Below are positions 2 to 29,129 of a DNA stretch of 64,000 bases, piece by piece (position 1 is the stretch's first letter; every line of letters starts with the position of its first letter). Source of the stretch: Anaerolineae bacterium (GTDB lineage: Bacteria > Chloroflexota > Anaerolineae > Anaerolineales > Villigracilaceae); contig JAJPIZ010000007.1 in NCBI GenBank assembly GCA_021324435.1, positions 1 to 64,000 on the forward strand. Direction: 5' to 3'. The position numbers and the translations under genes were made by a program. The notes under the pieces were generated by a model. The model saw only the letters and a program-made list of their open reading frames with translations, did not search any database and was not told the DNA's origin.

Positions 2-265
2 GAGCATCTCGACAAAATCCCCTTGCCCGCGGTCTACGCGGTCTCTCTCGCCGCGCGCGGAAGACCAAAGCAGAAATTGGAAAAATATATTTCCGAGTGG
101 CGGCACGTCAAGCCGCGCACTACCGGCCATGACTTGAAGAAACTCGGCCTCGAGCCGGGACCGAAATATCAGAAGATTTTATGGCGCCTGCGCGCCGCGT
201 GGCTGGATGGTGCTGTACACTCTAAGGGCGAAGAATTACAATTAATTGAAGTCTTGACAAAGTAA
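2..265 (+). CDS. CCA/A-adding tRNA nucleotidyltransferase, C-terminal fragment
   Basis: The reading frame is open from the window edge, so only the last 87 residues are present. They contain a G-x-DL-x3-GL-x-PGP block (around residues 39-50 of the fragment) followed by a WRLRAAWLDG segment. This is typical of the C-terminal RNA-binding part of class II tRNA nucleotidyltransferases, which add or repair the 3' CCA end of tRNA in the cytoplasm. The catalytic head domain would lie upstream of the window. The assignment rests on this tail motif alone; a related poly(A)-polymerase-like head domain protein cannot be excluded. Confidence 0.6.
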   Translation, partial: EHLDKIPLPAVYAVSLAARGRPKQKLEKYISEWRHVKPRTTGHDLKKLGLEPGPKYQKILWRLRAAWLDGAVHSKGEELQLIEVLTK

Positions 266-310
266 TACTTATCAACTTATCTGCGTTGGTAAATATGCAA
301 GGAGGCAAAC

Positions 311-808
311 ATGCGATTTATCACGGCAATTCTCTTGGCAATCACGGCTTATGTTGGAGTGCTTCTCGTTTTAGGGGCCATTTTTGATTATTTAATGTTC
401 TGTCCCGGTTGGGAAAGGGGGTTTTTATCAGGACTGGAATGGTGGTATCCAATAGCAGTTTTTGTTTCAGTTGTTGTAAATTGGTTTTTGGCAGGATACC
501 AAAAAGATATGTTCATGATAAATGGATCTGGCACGAAATTGTTTGGCCAGACACCGTCCCAGAATGGCTATATTGCTACCAAGTGGATCAGCCTGTTTTG
601 GTTCCCGATTCTTCCAGTGGAATCCTATGAGGTTTTAGCAAAGCAACAATCAGGGATGCAGGCGAACTATACTTTCACGCCACTCGAAGATTTGCACTGG
701 CCTCAAATTATCGTAACCGCAATAAAAGGATATGGAATTCTTTTTAGCATAATAGTCGCTTTTGCAGTATTTTTCAATTTCATTTGTTTCTCGGTCTTCC
801 CGCACTGA
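311..808 (+). CDS. Membrane protein of unknown function
   Basis: A 165-residue protein with a strong Shine-Dalgarno (AAGGAGG, 7 bases before ATG). Hydrophobic segments lie at about residues 1-30, 45-62 and 135-160. The middle holds a conserved-looking G-Y-x-ATKW-x-SLFWFP-x-LPVESY block that resembles the membrane-proximal motif of small uncharacterised bacterial membrane proteins. The stop TGA is directly followed by the ATG of the HisN-like gene, so the two are probably co-transcribed and translationally coupled. I do not recognise a function. The gene is more AT-rich than its downstream neighbour. Confidence 0.75.
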   Translation: MRFITAILLAITAYVGVLLVLGAIFDYLMFCPGWERGFLSGLEWWYPIAVFVSVVVNWFLAGYQKDMFMINGSGTKLFGQTPSQNGYIATKWISLFWFPILPVESYEVLAKQQSGMQANYTFTPLEDLHWPQIIVTAIKGYGILFSIIVAFAVFFNFICFSVFPH

Positions 809-1615
809 ATGAACCTTAGACACTACTATGATTTTGCGACCTCCCTCGCCTACCGTGCCGGCCGCATCACGCTCGGCTATTTCAACACGGGCAGCCGCCC
901 CGATTTCAAAGCGGACGACACTCCTGTCACCGCCGCGGATCGGGCGGCGGAGGAATTCATTCGCGGCGAGATCGAGAAGGCCTATCCCGGCCATGCCATC
1001 ATCGGCGAGGAGTTTGGGGAATCGTTTCCCTCTCTCAGCGGGAGAGGGGTTAGGGGTGAGGGAGAAGAGCCTATACGCTGGATCATTGACCCGATTGACG
1101 GGACCAAGTCCTTCATGCGCGGCGTGCCGCTGTACGCGGTGTTGATCGGATTGGAGATTGATGGTGTGGTGCGAGTCGGCGCGGCCTACTTCCCGGCGCT
1201 GGACGAAATGCTGTGCGCGGCGGACGGCCTCGGCGCATGGTGGAATAGCCGCCGCGCCCACGTCTCGGAGGTGGACTCAATGAAGCAGGCTTGTGTCTGC
1301 TACACCACGTACCACAACTTCGAGAAGCGCGATCTCTCGGTGTGGAAACGTCTCTCCGACGCGGCTTACATGATGCGCGGCTGGTCAGACGCGTATGCGT
1401 ATTTGGCGGTGGCCACCGGCCGCGCCGAGGTGGCGCTCGATCCGTTCATGAAGGTCTGGGACTGCGGTCCGTTCCCGGTTATCTTTCGCGAGGCGGGTGG
1501 ATACTTCGGATCGTGGAGCGGGGAGGAGGGTCACACACACGGGGAGGCGCTGGCTTGTAACGCCGCGCTCCGGCCCGAGGTCCTGAAATTGATGCGGGGC
1601 GAGTCTGGAGATTAA
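809..1615 (+). CDS. Inositol-monophosphatase family phosphatase, histidinol-phosphatase (HisN)-like
   Basis: A 268-residue Mg-dependent phosphatase of the IMPase fold. The metal-binding motifs are present in order: GEE near residue 70, WIIDPIDGT near residue 91, and WDCGP near residue 211. The long aromatic stretch before WD and the REAGG after it fit HisN-type histidinol-phosphatases (histidine biosynthesis, histidinol phosphate to histidinol) better than myo-inositol phosphatases, but substrate cannot be fixed from sequence. An unusual feature is a short insert just after GEE, encoded by a palindromic repeat at 1026-1061. It adds about a dozen Ser/Gly/Arg/Glu residues between two conserved motifs. 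Confidence 0.8.
   Translation: MNLRHYYDFATSLAYRAGRITLGYFNTGSRPDFKADDTPVTAADRAAEEFIRGEIEKAYPGHAIIGEEFGESFPSLSGRGVRGEGEEPIRWIIDPIDGTKSFMRGVPLYAVLIGLEIDGVVRVGAAYFPALDEMLCAADGLGAWWNSRRAHVSEVDSMKQACVCYTTYHNFEKRDLSVWKRLSDAAYMMRGWSDAYAYLAVATGRAEVALDPFMKVWDCGPFPVIFREAGGYFGSWSGEEGHTHGEALACNAALRPEVLKLMRGESGD
1026..1061 (+). repeat. Palindromic repeat inserted in frame in the HisN-like gene
   Basis: The arms CCCTCTC (1028-1034) and GAGAGGG (1042-1048) form a hairpin, followed by GTTAGGGGTGAGGG. The complementary strand reads CCCTCACCCCTAAC, a sequence style familiar from dispersed bacterial repeats that encode LTPNPSPAERG-like peptides. A related copy lies inside prmC at 43934-43983. Here the element is translated and keeps the frame. 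Confidence 0.65.
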
Positions 1616-3927: not shown

Positions 3928-4458
3928 TTACTTTAAGATGGATAAAACTTTCTGGACGGTTGTTGTTCCCAAGCTGTCCAACTTTGCCACGGCGCGTGAC
4001 AACGTATCAATCGCGTCGAAGAAATCCTGTAAAGCCTGCACCCGTTCGAGCAGGAATTTCCGTTCCGCCTCCTCCATGGACCCTTTGGCGGCCCGCAGTT
4101 TCTCGAGCGTTTCCCGCACGGACCGCACCGCGTTGTCGAACTCGCGGTTCTGCCGTTCGCCGAGGATGGAACGAATCGCCTTGTAGAAATCCGTCTCGGC
4201 CACGTAGTAATCTTTGCGGTCGCCCAGTTTGGTGGAGCGATGGACCAGTCCCATGCGGGCCAGGGCGCGCACATTCGTGCTGACCGCGCCTTTGGTGTGT
4301 CCACTTTGCGCAACAAGTTCATCCAGGGAGAGCGGGGTGGGGGAAAGATACAAGATGGCAAACACCGCACCGACTCCTTTTGGGAGCCCCCAGAAGTGGC
4401 TGATGTGACTCAGCCCCTCGGTAAAGCCCTGTTTGATTTGGGTGAGTTCTTTGGTCAT
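3928..4458 (-). CDS. GbsR/MarR-type winged-helix transcriptional regulator
   Basis: A 176-residue regulator. The winged-helix region spans about residues 25-105 (LSLDELVAQSGHTKGAVSTNVRALARMGLV, then a GDRKDYYVAE wing), followed by a long helical C-terminus that would make the dimer. The SHFWGLPKGVGAVFA opening is characteristic of the GbsR family, in which known members repress choline or glycine-betaine genes. No betaine genes are adjacent here, so the ligand is open. The gene heads an operon with a 39-residue membrane protein, an NAD(P)-binding protein and a DCC thiol protein. A palindromic operator lies at its own promoter, so it is probably autorepressed. Confidence 0.85.
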   Translation of the reverse strand: MTKELTQIKQGFTEGLSHISHFWGLPKGVGAVFAILYLSPTPLSLDELVAQSGHTKGAVSTNVRALARMGLVHRSTKLGDRKDYYVAETDFYKAIRSILGERQNREFDNAVRSVRETLEKLRAAKGSMEEAERKFLLERVQALQDFFDAIDTLSRAVAKLDSLGTTTVQKVLSILK

Positions 4459-4634: not shown

Positions 4635-5198
4635 CTATTGGCCTGGAAACAGCGCTTGCATGACCTCTTCGCCGTTCATCCCGGGATTCAATTTCTTGTA
4701 CTCAGAAATGTGAATATTGAAAATGCGCTGGTCTTCTTTCATCTTGAAAGTAATTTGCACGACCCCATCCTGTCCGCCGGGCACGAGGCCCCGCGGAAAC
4801 GCATCCAGTGTTTTCATTACGGCAATCAGCCAATTGCCCAGTTCCTTTTTGTCTTTCAGGTTTTTTACCATGACGGTCACATAAAAATCGGTCTCCATTG
4901 CGCCGAATTCTGTGTGACCGTCCGCATAGACGCAATCCTCGCCATAAGCCTGAGCGCTTCCCGATGCTTCGGGTTGAAGAGTTTTGACGGCTTTGTCCAC
5001 TTTTTCAGAAATTTCAGGCAGGGCGTGATATGCCCAGACATAATAACAGCCCTCATAGGTGGGAGCGATGATCGGCGTTTCCGTTGCGAGTGAATATGCA
5101 TCCGGCGTTTCATCGTCAACGGGCAGTGTTGTTGAAGTCTGCGCGATCGAACTGCAGGCTGTTAAGAAGAGCAAGGTGAGGAGAATGAAAATCCGCAT
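4635..5198 (-). CDS. Lipoprotein of unknown function
   Basis: A 187-residue protein beginning MRIFILLTLLFLTACSS, a clear lipobox signal peptide (L-T-A-C). The mature part has two further cysteines (YEGCYYVWAYHALPEISEKV and YGEDCVYADG) that could form a disulfide, and a mixed alpha/beta region without known motif. ATG at 5198 is chosen because the signal peptide starts there; an upstream in-frame start would add a non-signal leader. It is next to, and probably co-transcribed with, the FecR-like lipoprotein gene. It would sit on the outer face of the cytoplasmic membrane. Confidence 0.8.
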   Translation of the reverse strand: MRIFILLTLLFLTACSSIAQTSTTLPVDDETPDAYSLATETPIIAPTYEGCYYVWAYHALPEISEKVDKAVKTLQPEASGSAQAYGEDCVYADGHTEFGAMETDFYVTVMVKNLKDKKELGNWLIAVMKTLDAFPRGLVPGGQDGVVQITFKMKEDQRIFNIHISEYKKLNPGMNGEEVMQALFPGQ

Positions 5199-5199
5199 C

Positions 5200-6015
5200 T
5201 TATCCGCCGGGAGGCGATTCGTCGGTTGGAGCCTCATCGGGTGGCGACGCTTCATCTGTTGGAGGCTCATCTGTGGGCATCTCCTCCTCGATGGGTTCGG
5301 GGCTGGGCAACCACTCCGGCGAGCCGTTCTCGAAGAATTCCTGCGCGTCCGGGTTCTCGTTCACCCATTGTTGAATTTCCTCTTCGCTCATTTGCTCGGC
5401 ATCGGAGGGCGCTTGATCTTCCTCGATGGTTGATTCTTGTCCATCGGTCAATTCAACCTCGCCTTGATCGTTTTCCAAAGAACAATGTCCTTCAAGACAG
5501 GAAGCTTGGAGTTTCTTTGCGTTGGGATCATAGTTCACACCGAGCAAGCTCCCGCGCACTGATGCGACGCCCGAAGGCGTTTCCACTTGCAGACTGCCGC
5601 CTTTCAGCAAGACCCAGATCTGACCGAAATCGAGTTTTATGCGAGTTGCCGATTTACCGTCTTGGTCTATGTCGAGCGCAGTGACTGTGTACAGCGAATT
5701 CGGGCCAACGCGCACAATGGTCCCATCTGATAGAAGATCGACGCGAGCCCGGCTGTTGTCGCCTGTCTTCACTGAATCACCGACGGATAATTTCATGCCA
5801 TTCTGCGCGGCTGTAAAGTCCGCGCTTTGTCCCAAACGAACGCTGACTTCGTTGCTGATCTCATTGACGGTCGCTTGCCGAGGCGAAGAGGAAAGCGGAT
5901 TTGACGCGGGCCCGCTTCCAGTCGAGGCGGGAGGCGGAACGCTTTGTCCGGTTCCGCAGGCCGCCAGCAATAAACTTGCCAACAAAATCAGGTGCGTCAA
6001 TAAGTTTTTATTCAT
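5200..6015 (-). CDS. FecR-domain lipoprotein
   Basis: A 271-residue protein with signal peptide and lipobox (LLLAACG), a FecR-type beta-rich domain at about residues 50-165 (VRLGQSADF, GDSVKTGDNSRARVDLLSDGT, GQIWVLLKG, TPSGVASVRGS), and a low-complexity acidic tail rich in Pro, Glu, Asp and Thr. FecR domains of this kind occur in cell-surface and extracytoplasmic proteins, not only in ferric citrate signalling; no ECF sigma factor is adjacent. It is divergent from feoA-feoB, so an iron link is possible but not shown. It shares an operon with the next lipoprotein. Confidence 0.85.
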   Translation of the reverse strand: MNKNLLTHLILLASLLLAACGTGQSVPPPASTGSGPASNPLSSSPRQATVNEISNEVSVRLGQSADFTAAQNGMKLSVGDSVKTGDNSRARVDLLSDGTIVRVGPNSLYTVTALDIDQDGKSATRIKLDFGQIWVLLKGGSLQVETPSGVASVRGSLLGVNYDPNAKKLQASCLEGHCSLENDQGEVELTDGQESTIEEDQAPSDAEQMSEEEIQQWVNENPDAQEFFENGSPEWLPSPEPIEEEMPTDEPPTDEASPPDEAPTDESPPGG

Positions 6016-20375: not shown

Positions 20376-21623
20376 TTATTTTGTTAACTCAATCTGTGGG
20401 GCCTGAGTGAATTGATACTGGCTCGTTGGGTTCATTTCGATTTGTGTGTCGCTGGTTCCGCTCAATTCCACCGTATAACCGATCAGTTGGGAGTTCGCTT
20501 TTTGAAGTTGAGAATTGTTTCCATTTACGACAATCGCCGCGCCCGGCATCAGGACTGTTCCAGTGAGTGTGGAGTTGGAATTTCCATTGATCTTCATCGT
20601 ATTGGTGTTGGAAATCGGAGAATAAATCAGAAGGCCGTAAAAGGGAGAACTGGGATCACTGGGCGCTGAGATTTTAATCTCGGAACTGCCGTTCCAGTCA
20701 ATGCCGCCCGATTGCATGACAATCACCACATTGGAGCCGGACAACTTGTCATTTGCATTCATTTTAAAAGTTCCATTGATGCAATAGACACCGGATTGAA
20801 GCGTGGTCACGCCACTGGGCGGGAAGGTCCCGGTATACGTGCCGGCAGTCATCATGTTTCCAGTCTTTGTCGCCGTGCCCGTGCAGGTGGGGTTGGGAAG
20901 GCTGGGAGGCGGGTAAGGCTGTTGCCCTTGATTGCCATTGATGCCGTGGCCATAGGTGTTAATCTGCGGGTTGCCATTCTTGGTGTATCCCGTCGCCACC
21001 ATGCCGATTCCCTGATCGTAGGTTTGAATGTTAGTACTTCCCTGAATATCCAAACCGCAGGTACTGTCGGAATTGGAAAAAATACCCGCACCCCAGATTT
21101 GGAGTTGTGAATTGCCGGAGAATTTAACCGCATCGCAACCGGTTGGCTTAAGCCCCACAATGGCATTGCCATTGTAGTAAGGCCCGCTGACGCCCGGTTT
21201 GGCTCTGGCGATTGCCTCCACTTTATTGGTCACCTGAGGGATTCCTATTACTGGCGCGAAGAACGTCTTGACGTTGGAAGTAATGATGACTTGGATATAA
21301 TCACTATTTCCAGCGTATGGCCCGCTGATGGGCGGATTGTAGATTTCGACATTAGCCTTTGTAGACGAGGAGCCACTGGTAGCGTCCGTATCCACATAAC
21401 CATTGCTGGCGGCGCGACTCAAGCCCGCGTTGGTTAAGCTCTGGTTGTTTAGTTTTGCCAGTGCCGCCGCAAAGGCAGTGGTGTCCGCCGCATTCTGGGC
21501 ATTGCGGCGGTCAGCGTAGGCATTGCCCCCATCAATGGATAGCGCCGTCATCCCCACCAGGGCAATAATCCCAAAGACGATCAGGATCAACGCCTGGCCT
21601 CTTTCAGATTTTTTGGTCAACAT
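20376..21623 (-). CDS. TadG-like pilus-assembly protein with beta-rich C-terminus, paralog 1
   Basis: A 415-residue secreted protein. The N-terminus has the Tad-type motif RGQALILIVFGIIALVGM followed by DGGNAYADRRNAQNAADT, as in TadE/TadG-like putative pilus proteins. A region to about residue 180 with FFAPVIGIPQVTNKVEA is shared with its relatives. The rest is a Gly/Asn/Ser-rich beta-structured segment resembling a right-handed beta-helix or polymer-like domain (SGSNVVIVMQSGGIDWNGS, LTGTVLMPGAAIVVNGN). It is highly similar to the next gene upstream and clearly related to the gene at 27882-29129. Role in Tad-type pili or surface structure is inferred. Confidence 0.75.
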   Translation of the reverse strand: MLTKKSERGQALILIVFGIIALVGMTALSIDGGNAYADRRNAQNAADTTAFAAALAKLNNQSLTNAGLSRAASNGYVDTDATSGSSSTKANVEIYNPPISGPYAGNSDYIQVIITSNVKTFFAPVIGIPQVTNKVEAIARAKPGVSGPYYNGNAIVGLKPTGCDAVKFSGNSQLQIWGAGIFSNSDSTCGLDIQGSTNIQTYDQGIGMVATGYTKNGNPQINTYGHGINGNQGQQPYPPPSLPNPTCTGTATKTGNMMTAGTYTGTFPPSGVTTLQSGVYCINGTFKMNANDKLSGSNVVIVMQSGGIDWNGSSEIKISAPSDPSSPFYGLLIYSPISNTNTMKINGNSNSTLTGTVLMPGAAIVVNGNNSQLQKANSQLIGYTVELSGTSDTQIEMNPTSQYQFTQAPQIELTK

Positions 21624-21800: not shown

Positions 21801-23060
21801 CTATCGTATAAGCTGGACAGTAGGCGGTTGGTTGAACTGAAATTGACTGGTTGGATTCATTTCGATCTGTGTATCACTACTTCCGCTTAATTCCACCGAG
21901 TAGCCGATCAATTGGGAATTTACCTTTTGGAGCTGTGAGTTGTTTCCGTTCACCACAATCGGCGCGGCAGGCATCAGTACTGTACCCGTTAATTCTGAGT
22001 TGGAGCTCCCGTTAATCTGCATGGTGCTGGTGTTGGAAAGTGGGGCATAGATCAAGAGGCCAGCGAAGTCACCCGTGGTAGGAGCGGAGAGATGTAACTC
22101 AGCGCTACCGTTCCAATTGATGTCGCCGGATTGCATGACGATCACCACATTGTTTCCACTCAAGTTTTGACCCGCGTTCAGTTTGAAGCTTCCATTGATA
22201 CAATACACGCCGGATTGCAGGGCGGTTACGCCGCTGGGAGGAAAGGTGCCTGTGTATGAGCCAGCATACATCAAGTTTCCGGCCTTATAGGCAGTACCTG
22301 TGCAGGTTGGGTTGGGCAGATTCGGAGGCGGATACGGTTGCTGGGCCTGGTTCGGGTTAATCCCATAGCCATACGTGTTCACAGTCGGATTTCCGTTTAA
22401 TGTATAGCTGGTCGCTACCATATTGATTCCGGAATCATAGGTCTGCACGTTTGTGCTCCCTTGAATGTCAAGGCCGCACGAATCGCTCGAATTGGAAAAA
22501 ATACCAGCGTTCCAGATTTGCAATTGTGCATGACCAGAGAATTCAACCGCGTCACAGCCGGTTTGTTTAAGGCCCACGATGGCGGCTCCGCCGTAATAAG
22601 GTCCGGTATAGCCCGGCTTTGCCCATGCAACTGCCTGTACCTTGTTTGTGATTTGTCGAACGCCAATTACCGGCGCAAAATAGGTCCTGACGTTCGAGGT
22701 AATGATGACTTGGATATATTGGGTCTTATCTGCGCCGCTTGGGAGGTTGCAACTTGCACTTGCATTATCACAACGATATACCTCAACGTTGGCTCTCGAT
22801 GAGGAAGAACCGCCGGTGGGATCAGTATCAACATAGCCATTGCTGGCGGCGCGAGCGAGGGCCGCGTCGCTGTAATTTTGACTCTTGATCTTGGCCAGCG
22901 CGGCGGCCAAGACGGAAGTGTCCGCCGCATTTTGTGCATTGCGACGGTCAGAATAGGCGTTGCCGCCATCAATCGAGAGGGCGGTCAGACCAACCAACGC
23001 CACAATCGCGAAAACAATTATGATCAACGCTTGTCCTTTTTCGCGTTTTTTGCTGAACAT
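21801..23060 (-). CDS. TadG-like pilus-assembly protein with beta-rich C-terminus, paralog 2
   Basis: A 419-residue tandem duplicate of the gene downstream (20376-21623), sharing nearly the whole layout: KGQALIIIVFAIVALVG leader, DGGNAYSDRRNAQNAADTS, YFAPVIGVRQITNKVQ, and the same beta-rich C-terminal repeats. It differs by a Cys-containing insert near residue 95 (YRCDNASASCNL). An AGGAGAT site precedes the ATG. The pattern of an N-terminal secretion segment with a long Asn/Gly-rich tail suggests a surface-exposed structural protein. Confidence 0.75.
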   Translation of the reverse strand: MFSKKREKGQALIIIVFAIVALVGLTALSIDGGNAYSDRRNAQNAADTSVLAAALAKIKSQNYSDAALARAASNGYVDTDPTGGSSSSRANVEVYRCDNASASCNLPSGADKTQYIQVIITSNVRTYFAPVIGVRQITNKVQAVAWAKPGYTGPYYGGAAIVGLKQTGCDAVEFSGHAQLQIWNAGIFSNSSDSCGLDIQGSTNVQTYDSGINMVATSYTLNGNPTVNTYGYGINPNQAQQPYPPPNLPNPTCTGTAYKAGNLMYAGSYTGTFPPSGVTALQSGVYCINGSFKLNAGQNLSGNNVVIVMQSGDINWNGSAELHLSAPTTGDFAGLLIYAPLSNTSTMQINGSSNSELTGTVLMPAAPIVVNGNNSQLQKVNSQLIGYSVELSGSSDTQIEMNPTSQFQFNQPPTVQLIR

Positions 23061-25638: not shown

Positions 25639-27480
25639 CTACTCCACCGTTACGCTCTTGGCGAGATTTCGAGGTTGATCCACGTCCAGTCCGCGCAGAG
25701 CGGCAATGTGATAGGCCAGCAATTGCAGAGGCAAAACCGTCACAACCGGGGATAACATCCACGGCGCTTCCGGAACCCAGAAAACGTGATCTGCCATGCC
25801 GCGGACAAGTTCGTCTCCGTCCGTGGCGACCGCGACCACCATGCCGCCCCTCGCCTTGGCCTGCTGGATCTGGGAGATCATCTTCTCATGCCATGGATCT
25901 TTCGGCGCGAGGCATACTACCGGCATGTTTGCGTCAATCAATGCAATAGGGCCGTGCTTCATTTCGCCCGCAGGATACCCTTCGGCGTGAATGTAGGAAA
26001 TCTCCTTCAATTTCAGTGCGCCCTCATAGGCAATCGGCATGTTAATGCCGCGCCCCAAATACAGACAATCGCGGATATCTTTCAGCGTACGCGCTACCTT
26101 TTCGACCTCCGATTCTCGATCCAATGTGCGGCTGACGAGATCGGTCACGAGCCTCAAATCTGCGACCAGTGACTTGCGAGTCTTTTCATTAATCGCGCCG
26201 CGCAGATCGGCCAGCAGAATTGCCAGCATGTACTGGTCAATCAACGGCGCGGTAAAAGCCTTGGTCGAGGCCACTCCGATTTCAGGTCCTGTTTGCATCG
26301 AGATGAATCCGTCCGCGATACGCATGGCCTGTGATCCAATCACATTAACAATGCTCCACACCGTCGCGCCTTTACGCCGGCCTTCCTCCATCGCGGCAAG
26401 TGTATCTGCGGTTTCGCCGGATTGGCTGATGGCAAGCACGACTGTTTTATCGTTGATGATCGGGTCGCTGTATCGGAACTCGGAGCCAATCACCACTTCG
26501 ACCGGCACGCGCGCAATCTTTTCGATCAGATATTTGCCGACCATGCCCGCATACGCGGCAGTGCCGCAGGCCGTGATATAGATTTTTTCGATTTTGTTTG
26601 CAAGTTCTTTGGTCAGCCTCAGATCGGGCAAACGGATCTCGCCGCGCCCGAAATCTACGCGGCCTGCCAGCGTATCGGTCACCGCCCGGGCCTGTTCGTG
26701 GATTTCTTTCTGCATAAAGTGGCGGAACTCGCCTTTCTCCGCCGCCACAGGGTCCCACGAAACAGAATGAACTTGCGGCTCGATCTTTGTGCCTTCGATA
26801 GTTTCGACTTGAACGTTATCGCGTGTCACTACAGCCATTTGCCGCGATTCCAGAAAGATCACATTGCGCGTGTGCTCCATGATGGCGGGCGTGTCGCTGG
26901 CCAAATAATTTTCATTGTCGCCCAAACCAATCACTACGCCGCCTGCATTGCCGATGCGCGCCGTCACGATTTTATCAGGCTCATCCGCGCTCATCAGTAC
27001 GACTACGTTCGCGCCTTGAATTTGTTTGAAAGCGGCACGCGCGGCCTCTATCAAATCAAGCCCCGTCGCGAGGTAATGCTCAACGAGATGCACGATGGTC
27101 TCGGTGTCGGTGTCCGACTCAAATTTGACTCCCTCTGCGGTCAATTCATCTTTCAATTCGAGGAAATTTTCGACGATGCCGTTTTGCACAACGACGACGC
27201 GTTTGGTCTGGCCGAGATGCGGATGCGCATTGCGCGCAGACGGCGCGCCGTGCGTTGCCCAGCGCGTGTGACCAATGCCGGGCGCGCCGTTGATCGGCGA
27301 CTTGCTGACCAGATCGGCCAATTGAGATAACTTGCCCGCGTCTTTCCGGACCTCAAGCTGGCCGCCGTTAAACACAGCGATGCCGGCTGAGTCATAGCCG
27401 CGGTATTCCAGCCGTTTCAGGCCGTTGAGGATGATCGGCGTCGCGTCACGCGGCCCGATATATCCGACAATTCCACACAT
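25639..27480 (-). CDS. glmS: Glutamine-fructose-6-phosphate aminotransferase (isomerizing)
   Basis: A 613-residue enzyme that makes glucosamine-6-phosphate from fructose-6-phosphate and glutamine, the first step of amino sugar and peptidoglycan precursor synthesis. It starts MCGIVGYIG, where Cys becomes the glutaminase nucleophile after Met removal; TRWATHG and the two SIS domains (SQSGETADT, GRGINMPIAYEGALKLKE) follow, and it ends in DQPRNLAKSVTVE. GGAGG lies 5 bases before the ATG at 27480. Longer in-frame translation would read through a structured leader and is not real. Regulation by the ribozyme in its leader is likely. Confidence 0.95.
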   Translation of the reverse strand: MCGIVGYIGPRDATPIILNGLKRLEYRGYDSAGIAVFNGGQLEVRKDAGKLSQLADLVSKSPINGAPGIGHTRWATHGAPSARNAHPHLGQTKRVVVVQNGIVENFLELKDELTAEGVKFESDTDTETIVHLVEHYLATGLDLIEAARAAFKQIQGANVVVLMSADEPDKIVTARIGNAGGVVIGLGDNENYLASDTPAIMEHTRNVIFLESRQMAVVTRDNVQVETIEGTKIEPQVHSVSWDPVAAEKGEFRHFMQKEIHEQARAVTDTLAGRVDFGRGEIRLPDLRLTKELANKIEKIYITACGTAAYAGMVGKYLIEKIARVPVEVVIGSEFRYSDPIINDKTVVLAISQSGETADTLAAMEEGRRKGATVWSIVNVIGSQAMRIADGFISMQTGPEIGVASTKAFTAPLIDQYMLAILLADLRGAINEKTRKSLVADLRLVTDLVSRTLDRESEVEKVARTLKDIRDCLYLGRGINMPIAYEGALKLKEISYIHAEGYPAGEMKHGPIALIDANMPVVCLAPKDPWHEKMISQIQQAKARGGMVVAVATDGDELVRGMADHVFWVPEAPWMLSPVVTVLPLQLLAYHIAALRGLDVDQPRNLAKSVTVE

Positions 27481-27629
27481 GGGATCCTCCGATTTAGATA
27501 AAAAGATAATCAGATGAATAGAGACTAGTCTCTGCTCTCTATTTCTCTGAATTGCCATCCTTTGCGTTTTTATCCGCGCAATTGCTCGCGCGGCTTTGTG
27601 GCAAAGTTGTTTTCGGAGGGAAAGGGGAT

Positions 27630-27768
27630 CGGGCCTGGCTGGCCCGGAGGGCTTCCGCTGAACTTTCGATTTTCTCAACCGTATTGGTTGATTAACTCCA
27701 TCTTGCGATGGAGAACCCTCGTCCTCGTCATCCATTGCTGTTTGGAAAACAACAATGGATCATGCGCT
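27630..27768 (-). ncRNA. glmS ribozyme (glucosamine-6-phosphate-activated, self-cleaving)
   Basis: Read on the minus strand in the glmS leader. The 5' part has ATA|GCGC (predicted cleavage between 27768 and 27767), then P1 ATCCATTG/CAATGGAT (27753-27760 and 27730-27737), then the invariant TGACGAGG (27730-27723), P3 GAGGG/CCCTC (27716-27720 with 27647-27651), ATCGA (27670-27666), GCGGAAGCC and the P4 hairpin CGGGCC/GGCCCG (27630-27646). Order and sequence follow the known glmS ribozyme. Two additional hairpins sit inside P3, one of them with a GCAA tetraloop (27696-27713; 27676-27690). Position 5 is A where C is usual, with matching change in the pairing strand. Confidence 0.85.
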
Positions 27769-27826
27769 ATTCTTTCCCGGGTAAATTTGTTGAGCACCTC
27801 CTTGAGAGGAATTTTTGCAGGGCGAA

Positions 27827-27832
27827 ATTATA
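27827..27832 (-). promoter_or_regulatory. -10 box of the glmS transcript
   Basis: TATAAT on the minus strand, giving a predicted start near 27820 and a leader of about 340 bases that holds the ribozyme. Also in this leader, between ribozyme and start codon, are hairpins CCGCGC/GCGCGG (27574-27593) and a perfect 14-base palindrome AGAGACTAGTCTCT (27520-27533). The -35 is weak. Confidence 0.5.
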
Positions 27833-27881: not shown

Positions 27882-29129
27882 TTATTTTGTAAATTGGATT
27901 TCGGGCATGGTCAGCGCGTCGTAGTTTTGGTCGTCAATATACCGCATGACGATATTGCTATTGCCGTCCACGTCAATGGTATATCCGATAATCTGGCTAT
28001 GAAACCCATAATCGGAGTCGTTTCCTTTGATTCGAATCTGTGCGCCCGGCGCAAGGATCGTTCCTCGAATTGAAGAGTCTTCATTGGCATTGAGGGCAAG
28101 ATAATGTGTATTCTCCGCGGGCTGATATATTAGCAGGCCTGCTAGATCGCCGCTTTTGGGAGCAGAGAGATTGATTGTTGCATTGCCGGCAAATTGGACT
28201 CTGCCGTGTTCGATTTTGAAAACTACGCCATTGCCCTTGAGTTCACGGTTATCCGTGACGATGAAATCCGAGTTTAGGCAGTAGACGCCGCTCCCAAGAG
28301 TATCAACGCCGGGCGGAGGGAAAATATCATCCCAATATCCCGAGGTCATGCTATGGCCATCTTCTGAGATCTCTGCGGGTTGATTGCATCCCATTTTGGG
28401 CATATAGAAGGGAGGAGGATATGGCATTTGCGGAACGTTGGTGATCGGCGGATAGGGAGTGAGCAACTTGGGTTTCTGAATGGACGCGCCGCCAACGATC
28501 AGAATTTGCCCGCCATTGATGCGGATACTCCCGCTTCCCTGTTCAATGAGCGCACAAGTGGCGTTGTTTGAATTGACGAAGATGCCGCCCCCGCCAATGT
28601 CTAATGTGGCCTCTGCATGAATCCAAAATGCTTTGTTGTTGTCGCAATCGCTGGTCGGAGCGAGGCTGACAACCATTGCCCCGCCCAAAATTGGTTGATA
28701 AGTGGGCGTCTTGGTACGCGAGACGGCTTCGACTTTGTTTGTGATTTGGGGGATACCTACCACTGTTGCAAAGTATGTTCTTGTGAAGGATGTAATCTGG
28801 ACCTGGATGTATTCGATATCGCCTTTGTATGTTCCGCTGATGGGGGGGCTGGATACCAGGACTATATTTGTGATTCCGTCGTTGTTGTAGCCGTTCCTCG
28901 CAGCCGATGCGTAAACGGCATTCACCCACGTTGCATTATTATTATTGATCCGCGCTATCGCTCCAGCGAGCGCGGCGGCGTCCGCGGCATTTTGAGCGCG
29001 CCGCCGTTCGGCCAGCGCGTTGCCGCCGTCTATTGAGAGTGCGGTAACCCCCACCAGCGCGACAATCCCCAAAACGATGATGATTAACGCCTGTCCGCGA
29101 TGTGTATGTTTGGTGTCTATCACAAGCAA
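27882..29129 (-). CDS. TadG-like pilus-assembly protein, paralog 3
   Basis: A 415-residue relative of the two tandem TadG-like proteins: HRGQALIIIVLGIVALVGVTAL leader, DGGNALAERRRAQNAADAAALAGA, YFATVVGIPQITNKVEA, and a C-terminal beta-rich part (GNGVVFKIEHGRVQFAGN, GTILAPGAQIRIKGN). The middle section differs and contains its own cysteines. It follows the TadE-like gene by 11 bases and ends the prepilin operon, so it is probably exported or assembled with those pilins. The ends of the proteins (MPEIQFTK here, PQIELTK in paralog 1) are alike. Confidence 0.75.
   Translation of the reverse strand: MLVIDTKHTHRGQALIIIVLGIVALVGVTALSIDGGNALAERRRAQNAADAAALAGAIARINNNNATWVNAVYASAARNGYNNDGITNIVLVSSPPISGTYKGDIEYIQVQITSFTRTYFATVVGIPQITNKVEAVSRTKTPTYQPILGGAMVVSLAPTSDCDNNKAFWIHAEATLDIGGGGIFVNSNNATCALIEQGSGSIRINGGQILIVGGASIQKPKLLTPYPPITNVPQMPYPPPFYMPKMGCNQPAEISEDGHSMTSGYWDDIFPPPGVDTLGSGVYCLNSDFIVTDNRELKGNGVVFKIEHGRVQFAGNATINLSAPKSGDLAGLLIYQPAENTHYLALNANEDSSIRGTILAPGAQIRIKGNDSDYGFHSQIIGYTIDVDGNSNIVMRYIDDQNYDALTMPEIQFTK

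Follow-up and report, generated by a model that had tools for sequence, protein, structure and literature searches.

The glmS leader of this Anaerolineae genome raises the question whether a ribozyme of the glmS class is located there, and what its unusual parts and its relatives add to that class. To our knowledge, glmS ribozymes are almost always located before glmS. The preliminary description of the locus had proposed a glmS ribozyme whose P3 region is expanded, and a genome that is likely from the Chloroflexota.

The ribozyme in the glmS leader

A cmscan of the whole window (the entire stretch of 64,000 nt that was analysed) returned RF00234, the glmS family, as the sole Rfam match over threshold. 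The match lies at 27779-27550 (-), covers model positions 1-167 and scores 49.9 bits (gathering score 37, E-value 1.4e-8). It bears out both the proposal and the check suggested with it, an Infernal run of RF00234 on the minus strand. The downstream gene, with its ATG at 27480, is glmS (TIGR01135, 773.2 bits versus a cut-off of 418), and the element is located in its leader. The extent originally given, 27768-27630, does lie within the element but is too short, the true span being about 27779 to 27550 (-). The parts of the leader are the following:

27827-27832 (-): candidate promoter -10 element TATAAT (sequence)
27772-27778 (-): P0 5' strand GGGAAAG, 5' of the cleavage site (pairs with 27618-27624)
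27767-27768 (-): predicted cleavage site, A-1 (27768) / G1 (27767) (RF00234 alignment)
27761-27766 (-): P2.2 5' strand C2 G3 C4 A5 U6 G7, with a proposed A5 bulge and U6-A53 pair
27730-27760 (-): P1 hairpin (RF00234 alignment, covariation, fold)
27723-27729 (-): core segment GACGAGG (invariant columns in the alignment of relatives)
27716-27720 (-): P3 5' strand GAGGG (RF00234 alignment, covariation)
27696-27713 (-): extra hairpin 1, 7 bp, GCAA loop (covariation)
27675-27691 (-): extra hairpin 2, 6 bp, length variable among relatives (covariation)
27666-27670 (-): AUCGA, P2.1 cofactor-pocket strand (sequence; role according to the available part of PMC7125110)
27656-27660 (-): P2.2 3' strand C52 A53 G54 C55 G56 (CAGCG) (comparison of relatives)
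27647-27651 (-): P3 3' strand CCCUC (RF00234 alignment, covariation)
27630-27646 (-): P3.1 hairpin, 6 bp (comparison and fold)
27618-27624 (-): P0 3' strand CUUUCCC, after P3.1 (comparison and fold)
27613-27619 (-): possible anti-Shine-Dalgarno CCUCCGA, overlapping P0 by two bases (pairing tests)
27560-27606 (-): P4 domain with GCAA tetraloop (RF00234 alignment, fold)
27486-27492 (-): UCGGAGG, including the glmS Shine-Dalgarno GGAGG (27490-27486) (sequence, pairing tests)
25639-27480 (-): glmS, 613 aa (TIGR01135, 773.2 bits)

Around glmS, the window also encodes paralogous proteins (20376-21623, 21801-23060 and 27882-29129 (-)) that share a GQALI...VALVG start and, named by eye, are predicted to be secreted or pilus-assembly-like.

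Alignment and sequence place the cleavage-site GCGC, P1, P3, AUCGA and P4 in the order that had been described. The A-1/G1 site (AUA before the cut, GCGCAUG after it) is accompanied by the invariant GACGAGG, AUCGA and GCGG segments, and P1, P3, P3.1, P4 and a pseudoknotted P2.2 with A5 bulged can all be formed. A model-free fold of the minus strand recovers P1, P3 with two additional hairpins, P3.1, P4 and a further helix, P0, at -88.9 kcal/mol, whereas shuffles average -61.4 (z -6.0; none of 200 shuffles equal). The core residues and A-1 are conserved over 188 relatives, A-1 being A in 188/188. As the core, the pseudoknot strands, P3.1 and P4 are present, the window element is placed in the known class. 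Judged from its sequence, it is a Chloroflexota glmS ribozyme whose P3 is expanded; it belongs to a known family and carries additions outside the Rfam model. By analogy with that family, we are highly confident that this copy would cleave with GlcN6P.

The two extra hairpins lie where the preliminary description had put them, between the P3 5' strand and AUCGA, and the 7-bp stem with a GNRA tetraloop is hairpin 1 (27713-27696). Across 28 of 30 loci (L015 and L027 omitted), 95.0% of the cells in P1, P3 and both hairpins are paired, with a covariation score of 0.654 versus 0.228 for shuffled alignments (0/500) and at most 0.199 with slid partners; both sides change in 6/7 pairs of hairpin 1 and in 6/6 of hairpin 2. 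Two pairs that RNAalifold placed in this alignment, 18-84 and 19-83, are incompatible with P2.2 and were excluded.

A covariance model of the core and both hairpins, without P0 and P3.1 (R1), has matches in 268 of 300 genomes from the window's order and in 114 of 400 sampled from the phylum, order members included. Among the source genome and 60 relatives, RF00234 matches 39 of the 61 genomes at E 0.001, and only 16 of them exceed its gathering score. Other families of the phylum also have a short form that is hairpin-free (13/188 sequences); just one hairpin is present in L002, and hairpin 2 is missing from L010. By these comparisons, the expansion is modular, and is not peculiar to the source genome but usual in the order. 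Strong covariation in both hairpins, together with their regular presence in the order, marks them as parts of the ribozyme, not accidents.

For the statistics that follow, 204 R1 matches in three sets (101, 98 and 5) were reduced to 198 tabulated ones (194 distinct) by leaving out a partial hit in L179 and the set of five. The analyses of P0 and P2.2 each comprise 188 usable sequences, with differing membership. Classes are defined by position 4, which is C in class 1 and any other base in class 2. Forms shorter than 90 nt were held apart or left out in the class statistics (P2.2, P0, hairpin loop, Shine-Dalgarno, terminator), and all these counts ignore relatedness. Hairpin 1 has a GNRA loop in 56/93 class-1 and 68/79 class-2 relatives, and a CUAA-type linker is common in it. 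Four class-2 copies (L086, L087, L092 and L198) seem to have a repeat-like sequence (ATTGCTT...GCAATGACA) inserted in the P1 loop. These four and L027 at first seemed to lack the cleavage site, a reading that was rejected; a candidate 5' strand lies upstream, beyond the P1-loop insert.

P2.2 register, helix P0 and the Shine-Dalgarno sequence

In the available part of PMC7125110, from which our numbering of P2.2 is taken, the helix has C2-G56, a bulge at position 6 and the pair G7-C52, and an inward shift of the bulge is inferred from rescue (double) mutants of a core construct. That position 5 of the window copy departs from the usual base, as had been pointed out, is correct; it is not a weakness, because U6 can pair with A53 when A5 is bulged. 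Among 188 relatives, positions 5 and 6 covary with 53. G53 always goes with C5 (22/22), and the 166 sequences with A53 have U6 in 153 cases and U5 in one more, leaving 12 in which neither 5 nor 6 is U and a standard pair is missing. The window combines C4 A5 U6 with A53, which permits the U6-A53 pair, and we propose that its bulge is shifted from 6 to 5. Non-C4 sequences of the form GCG-G/A-CUG permit C5-G54 and U6-A53, i.e. a bulge at 4. These natural registers match those proposed for the mutants of PMC7125110, in which position 5 or 4 is bulged and 6 pairs with 53. The mutants were double changes made in the laboratory in a core construct, whereas ours are natural sequences sorted by gene, which provide independent support for the mutant-based proposal made there.

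Helix P0 spans the cleavage site. In the window, GGGAAAG (27778-27772), 5' of the cut, pairs with CUUUCCC (27624-27618); the RF00234 consensus leaves the 5' positions unpaired, and the helix is missing from the Rfam model. In class 1, P0 reaches at least 7 bp in 64/96 sequences, versus 26% of mismatched pairs and 6.0% of shuffles, and compensated variants occur (CGGGAAGC/GCUUCCCG, GGAGGGA/UCCCUCC, GGGAUGUU/GACAUCCC). Class 2 stands little above mismatched pairs (at least 7 bp in 33/79 versus 21%, at least 5 bp in 77/79 versus 90%) because the P0 sequence itself is conserved. The short hairpin-free forms lend P0 no support (2/13 versus 8%), and it is absent from the minimum-energy fold of one glnA leader, L096, a fold that beats shuffles only moderately (z -2.8; 2/200 as good). 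P0 may tie the 5' fragment to the ribozyme body and thereby hold the 5' product after cleavage.

Many class-1 leaders have CCUCC right after P0, complementary to the glmS Shine-Dalgarno sequence. CCUCC and a GGAGG before a glmS-like start are both present in 47/97 class-1 sequences. With kinship ignored, two bases flanking the motifs on one side can pair in 24 of the 47 versus 14.3 after permutation (0/5000), and one base in 30 versus 25.3 (25/5000). Three bases give no signal in these 47 leaders (7 versus 6.7), and the opposite flank of the Shine-Dalgarno motif does not covary. The window pairs CCUCCGA (27619-27613) with UCGGAGG (27492-27486). We compared full leaders with leaders starting at G1 in ViennaRNA, without pseudoknots. 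The mean pairing between Shine-Dalgarno and anti-Shine-Dalgarno rises from 0.413 to 0.657 when the 47 leaders start at G1 (an increase exceeding 0.1 in 23 leaders, a decrease in 2), and in the window only from 0.87 to 0.99. The Shine-Dalgarno sequence is mostly closed in both states (unpaired 0.178 and 0.102, respectively). A Shine-Dalgarno:anti-Shine-Dalgarno helix in class-1 leaders is thus supported; that its closure is coupled to cleavage is a tentative suggestion, and we would consider it doubtful for now.

Hexamers resembling a -10 element are found 50-69 nt upstream of A-1 in 43/94 class-1 leaders, and 30-49 nt upstream in 45/78 class-2 leaders, both raw counts without background control.

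Non-C4 ribozymes and their genes

R1 detected a second copy in the source genome (G000:C51:34422-34567 (-), 62.4 bits), which the RF00234 search of that genome, reporting the window copy only, did not return. Copies fetched from 20 genomes revealed a distinct form, mostly GGAGAA-nn-A before the cut and GCGGCUG after it, in which position 26 is free to vary, one base is added between G7 and P1, and both hairpins are present. A pattern of ACGAGG and hairpin 1, in which position 4 is not involved, has at least 80 loci over GTDB contigs. Among the matches listed, these are mostly labelled Anaerolineales, Anaerolineaceae or unresolved Chloroflexota, cultured carriers are Longilinea arvoryzae, Bellilinea caldifistulae and Levilinea saccharolytica, and two loci, L169 (Chryseobacterium) and L188, lie outside the phylum. 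R1 gave no match in L169 or L197. A near-identical pattern occurs in 132/300 genomes of the order, and a reversed control pattern had none among the matches listed for the same 300.

The non-C4 ribozymes have the P1, P2.2 and P3 helices and the UCG strand of the cofactor pocket (79/79); in place of GCGC they have GCGG, GCGA or GCGU. Six such loci were scanned with RF00234, representing five distinct ribozymes, as L096 and L209 (Bellilinea caldifistulae) carry the same one. None reached the gathering score: L101 scored 35.0 bits and L215 31.5 bits, and L082, L096, L176 and L209 had no match at E 0.01. We therefore file the class only as a diverged relative, not as a member of RF00234. It falls short of the family in score (for these six) and in C4, and retains the fold and the core. 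In 39 of 40 chosen loci directly before glnA (L208 omitted for length), 97.2% of cells are paired and the covariation is 0.434 versus 0.177 shuffled (0/500) and at most 0.127 slid; C5-G54 fails in 5/39, the GCGU forms.

Gene contexts were assigned by blastp with four reference proteins, over a reach of up to 4 kb. Of the 194 distinct ribozymes, 189 are classifiable (110 C4, 79 non-C4), the remaining five being misframed by P1-loop inserts. Where position 4 is C, glmS is the first recognised gene in 107/110 cases; the exceptions are L080, L188 and L168, which is cut short. In L080, a DegT/DnrJ/EryC1 aminotransferase (37-1326 (-)) stands behind the ribozyme instead of glmS. In L188, on a contig labelled Candidatus Bipolaricaulota (transfer or misbinning), a C4 ribozyme of class-1 type (4107-4334 (-); RF00234, 38.1 bits) precedes a GTPase/SIS-domain protein.

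Among the non-C4 ribozymes, glmS comes first in 0/79, and glnA follows directly or behind an ada-type gene in 59/79 (42 and 17, respectively). Another 8 have an ada-type gene alone within reach, and 12 have no recognised gene. Five of these 12 end within 700 nt. In six (L181, L144, L202, L150, L203 and L191), the downstream product contains a common stretch (YHRYHI..., SRPC-YG-FSGP-GGF; by eye), and the two of these examined lie just over the Glu_synthase PF01645 cut-off of 20.4 (L181 24.0, L144 26.9). A glutamate-synthase-like protein may thus be a third context, also related to glutamine. An orphan copy, L176 795-908 (Longilinea arvoryzae), has no convincing same-strand gene nearby. The agreement of C4 with glmS was checked for circularity with the class-2 pattern, which ignores position 4: of 12 loci with glmS downstream among the pattern matches listed, ten are tabulated, and all ten have C4.

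In the source genome, the second ribozyme is followed on one strand by an ABM-like protein (below the Pfam cut-off), an AraC/MGMT (ada-like) protein, a gene that we take to be an EamA-like transporter, and glnA, the only TIGR00653 match in this 97%-complete genome. We infer that this cluster is one operon. L140 (G101:C41; ribozymes at 404-513 and 2489-2596) has a GCGA ribozyme, glnA, a GCGC ribozyme and glmS in tandem, which suggests that the classes originated by tandem duplication. Next to the source genome's second ribozyme lies a 6S RNA match (L082 5687-5863 (-), 71.2 bits, gathering score 46.4); in L101, a T-box leader match at 5155-5373 (+) is below its gathering score (68.8 versus 93 bits).

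In 173 leaders with 320 nt downstream, a terminator-like hairpin (strong inverted repeat and U-run) precedes the first gene in 48/77 class-2 and 0/96 class-1 leaders, with a dinucleotide-shuffle expectation of 0.0. No general antiterminator was found upstream of the class-2 terminator when the best complement to its 5' arm was sought in the 48 loci: true sequences averaged a score of 15.27, mismatched ones 14.94 and shuffled ones 14.36. Pairing of GGAAGGGC with AYGCCC in class-2 leaders was noted by eye. A conserved GGAAGG lies about 104 nt after a CCUUCC beside P0 and shortly before the terminator-like hairpin, both motifs occurring in 61/79 class-2 sequences. Their covariation is weak: one flanking base pairs in 47/61 versus 42.5 permuted (85/5000), and two and three bases reach 317/5000 and 1899/5000.

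The class-2 ribozyme could be a self-cleaving attenuator, in which cleavage leads to transcription termination before glnA and amino-sugar feedback on nitrogen assimilation; we consider this unlikely as it stands. The leader would cut itself in the presence of GlcN6P or a new amine ligand, and loss of P0 would free CCCUUCC to capture the conserved GGAAGGGC, whose alternative partner would be the AYGCCC arm of the terminator that follows. An equivalent arrangement in glmS leaders would target the Shine-Dalgarno sequence.

Function, alternatives and relation to known systems

On these data together, the glmS 5' leader very probably contains a glmS ribozyme that cleaves itself in response to GlcN6P and has covarying additions, and a sister class stands before glnA. 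By the known class, GlcN6P would be the catalytic cofactor, the cut would fall at 27768/27767, and the 5'-OH mRNA would then be degraded, probably by RNase J. A protein of the RNase J type (TIGR00649) is over its cut-off in 12/12 genomes tested; this is no specific sign, because the same is true of 9/14 control genomes. The hairpins, the shifted bulge and P0 would stabilise the fold, and loss of P0 after cleavage could favour pairing of the Shine-Dalgarno with its complement, adding translational shut-off to decay.

For the glnA class, with its remodelled junction of P2.2 and P1, the role would most likely be GlcN6P feedback on glutamine synthetase. The enterobacterial enzyme is inhibited by GlcN6P among others, according to the available part of PMC6316151, which makes such feedback on glnA plausible. 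By this analogy, we think it probable that the class senses GlcN6P. Less probable is a changed ligand (e.g. glutamine or another amine), which would make it a new ribozyme specificity. This would fit the lack of C at position 4 (79/79, by definition, though matched by gene context), the relaxation of G26 (28/79 versus 93/97 in class 1) and the extra base between G7 and P1; it fits less well with the invariant UCG strand of the cofactor pocket, and the mutants of PMC7125110 led to the inference that GlcN6P cleavage tolerates a bulge at 4. That the class senses neither is distinctly unlikely.

The glmS leader could also be a degenerate or ligand-independent descendant, with constitutive cleavage or none, any regulation then operating via the Shine-Dalgarno:anti-Shine-Dalgarno helix, which is predicted in the window in both states. 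The modest score (among the 39 genomes with a match, 23 stay under the gathering value) and the unusual base at position 5 could be read in this way. We regard it as improbable, given that the core and A-1 are conserved over 188 relatives, the helices covary, and the change at position 5 is matched at 53. That the extra hairpins are role-less insertions tolerated in a permissive strand is very improbable: hairpin 2 is highly variable in length, one hairpin may be absent (L002, L010) and P1 loops of some class-2 copies (L086, L087, L092, L198) carry inserts, but the hairpins covary strongly in both classes, hairpin 1 commonly keeps its GNRA loop and CUAA-type linker, and both also occur elsewhere in the phylum, in further families and classes.

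The window copy shares with RF00234 the order of segments, A-1/G1, P1, P2.2, P3, P3.1, P4 and the place before glmS. It differs in the two hairpins between P3 and P2.1, the bulge at 5, P0 and the possible anti-Shine-Dalgarno; the glnA class differs in the bulge at 4, the relaxed G26, the extra base before P1 and, often, the terminator-like hairpin. McCown and others reportedly found, in 2011, structural variants of the glmS ribozyme with additional core stems in Deinococcus-Thermus. The glutamine riboswitch is an RNA element of glnA leaders and, like the class described here, stands upstream of a gene of glutamine metabolism; its fold is unrelated, whereas our class is derived from glmS ribozymes, and Rfam scans of seven loci reported no match to the glutamine riboswitch family. 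Our searches of an open-access library listed no title or abstract opening that reports a glnA-linked glmS ribozyme.

The Rfam threshold misses many members here (only 16 of the 39 matching genomes are above it), and a better model would be easy to build. Through P0 and the leader elements next to it, cleavage may act beyond mRNA decay by a route that can be tested. The glnA form is present in cultured Bellilinea and Levilinea strains. If true, a widespread sister branch before glnA would bring the glmS ribozyme class a new target. It would tie cell-wall sugar status to nitrogen assimilation, and would echo the feedback of GlcN6P on the enterobacterial glutamine synthetase enzyme that the accessible part of PMC6316151 describes.
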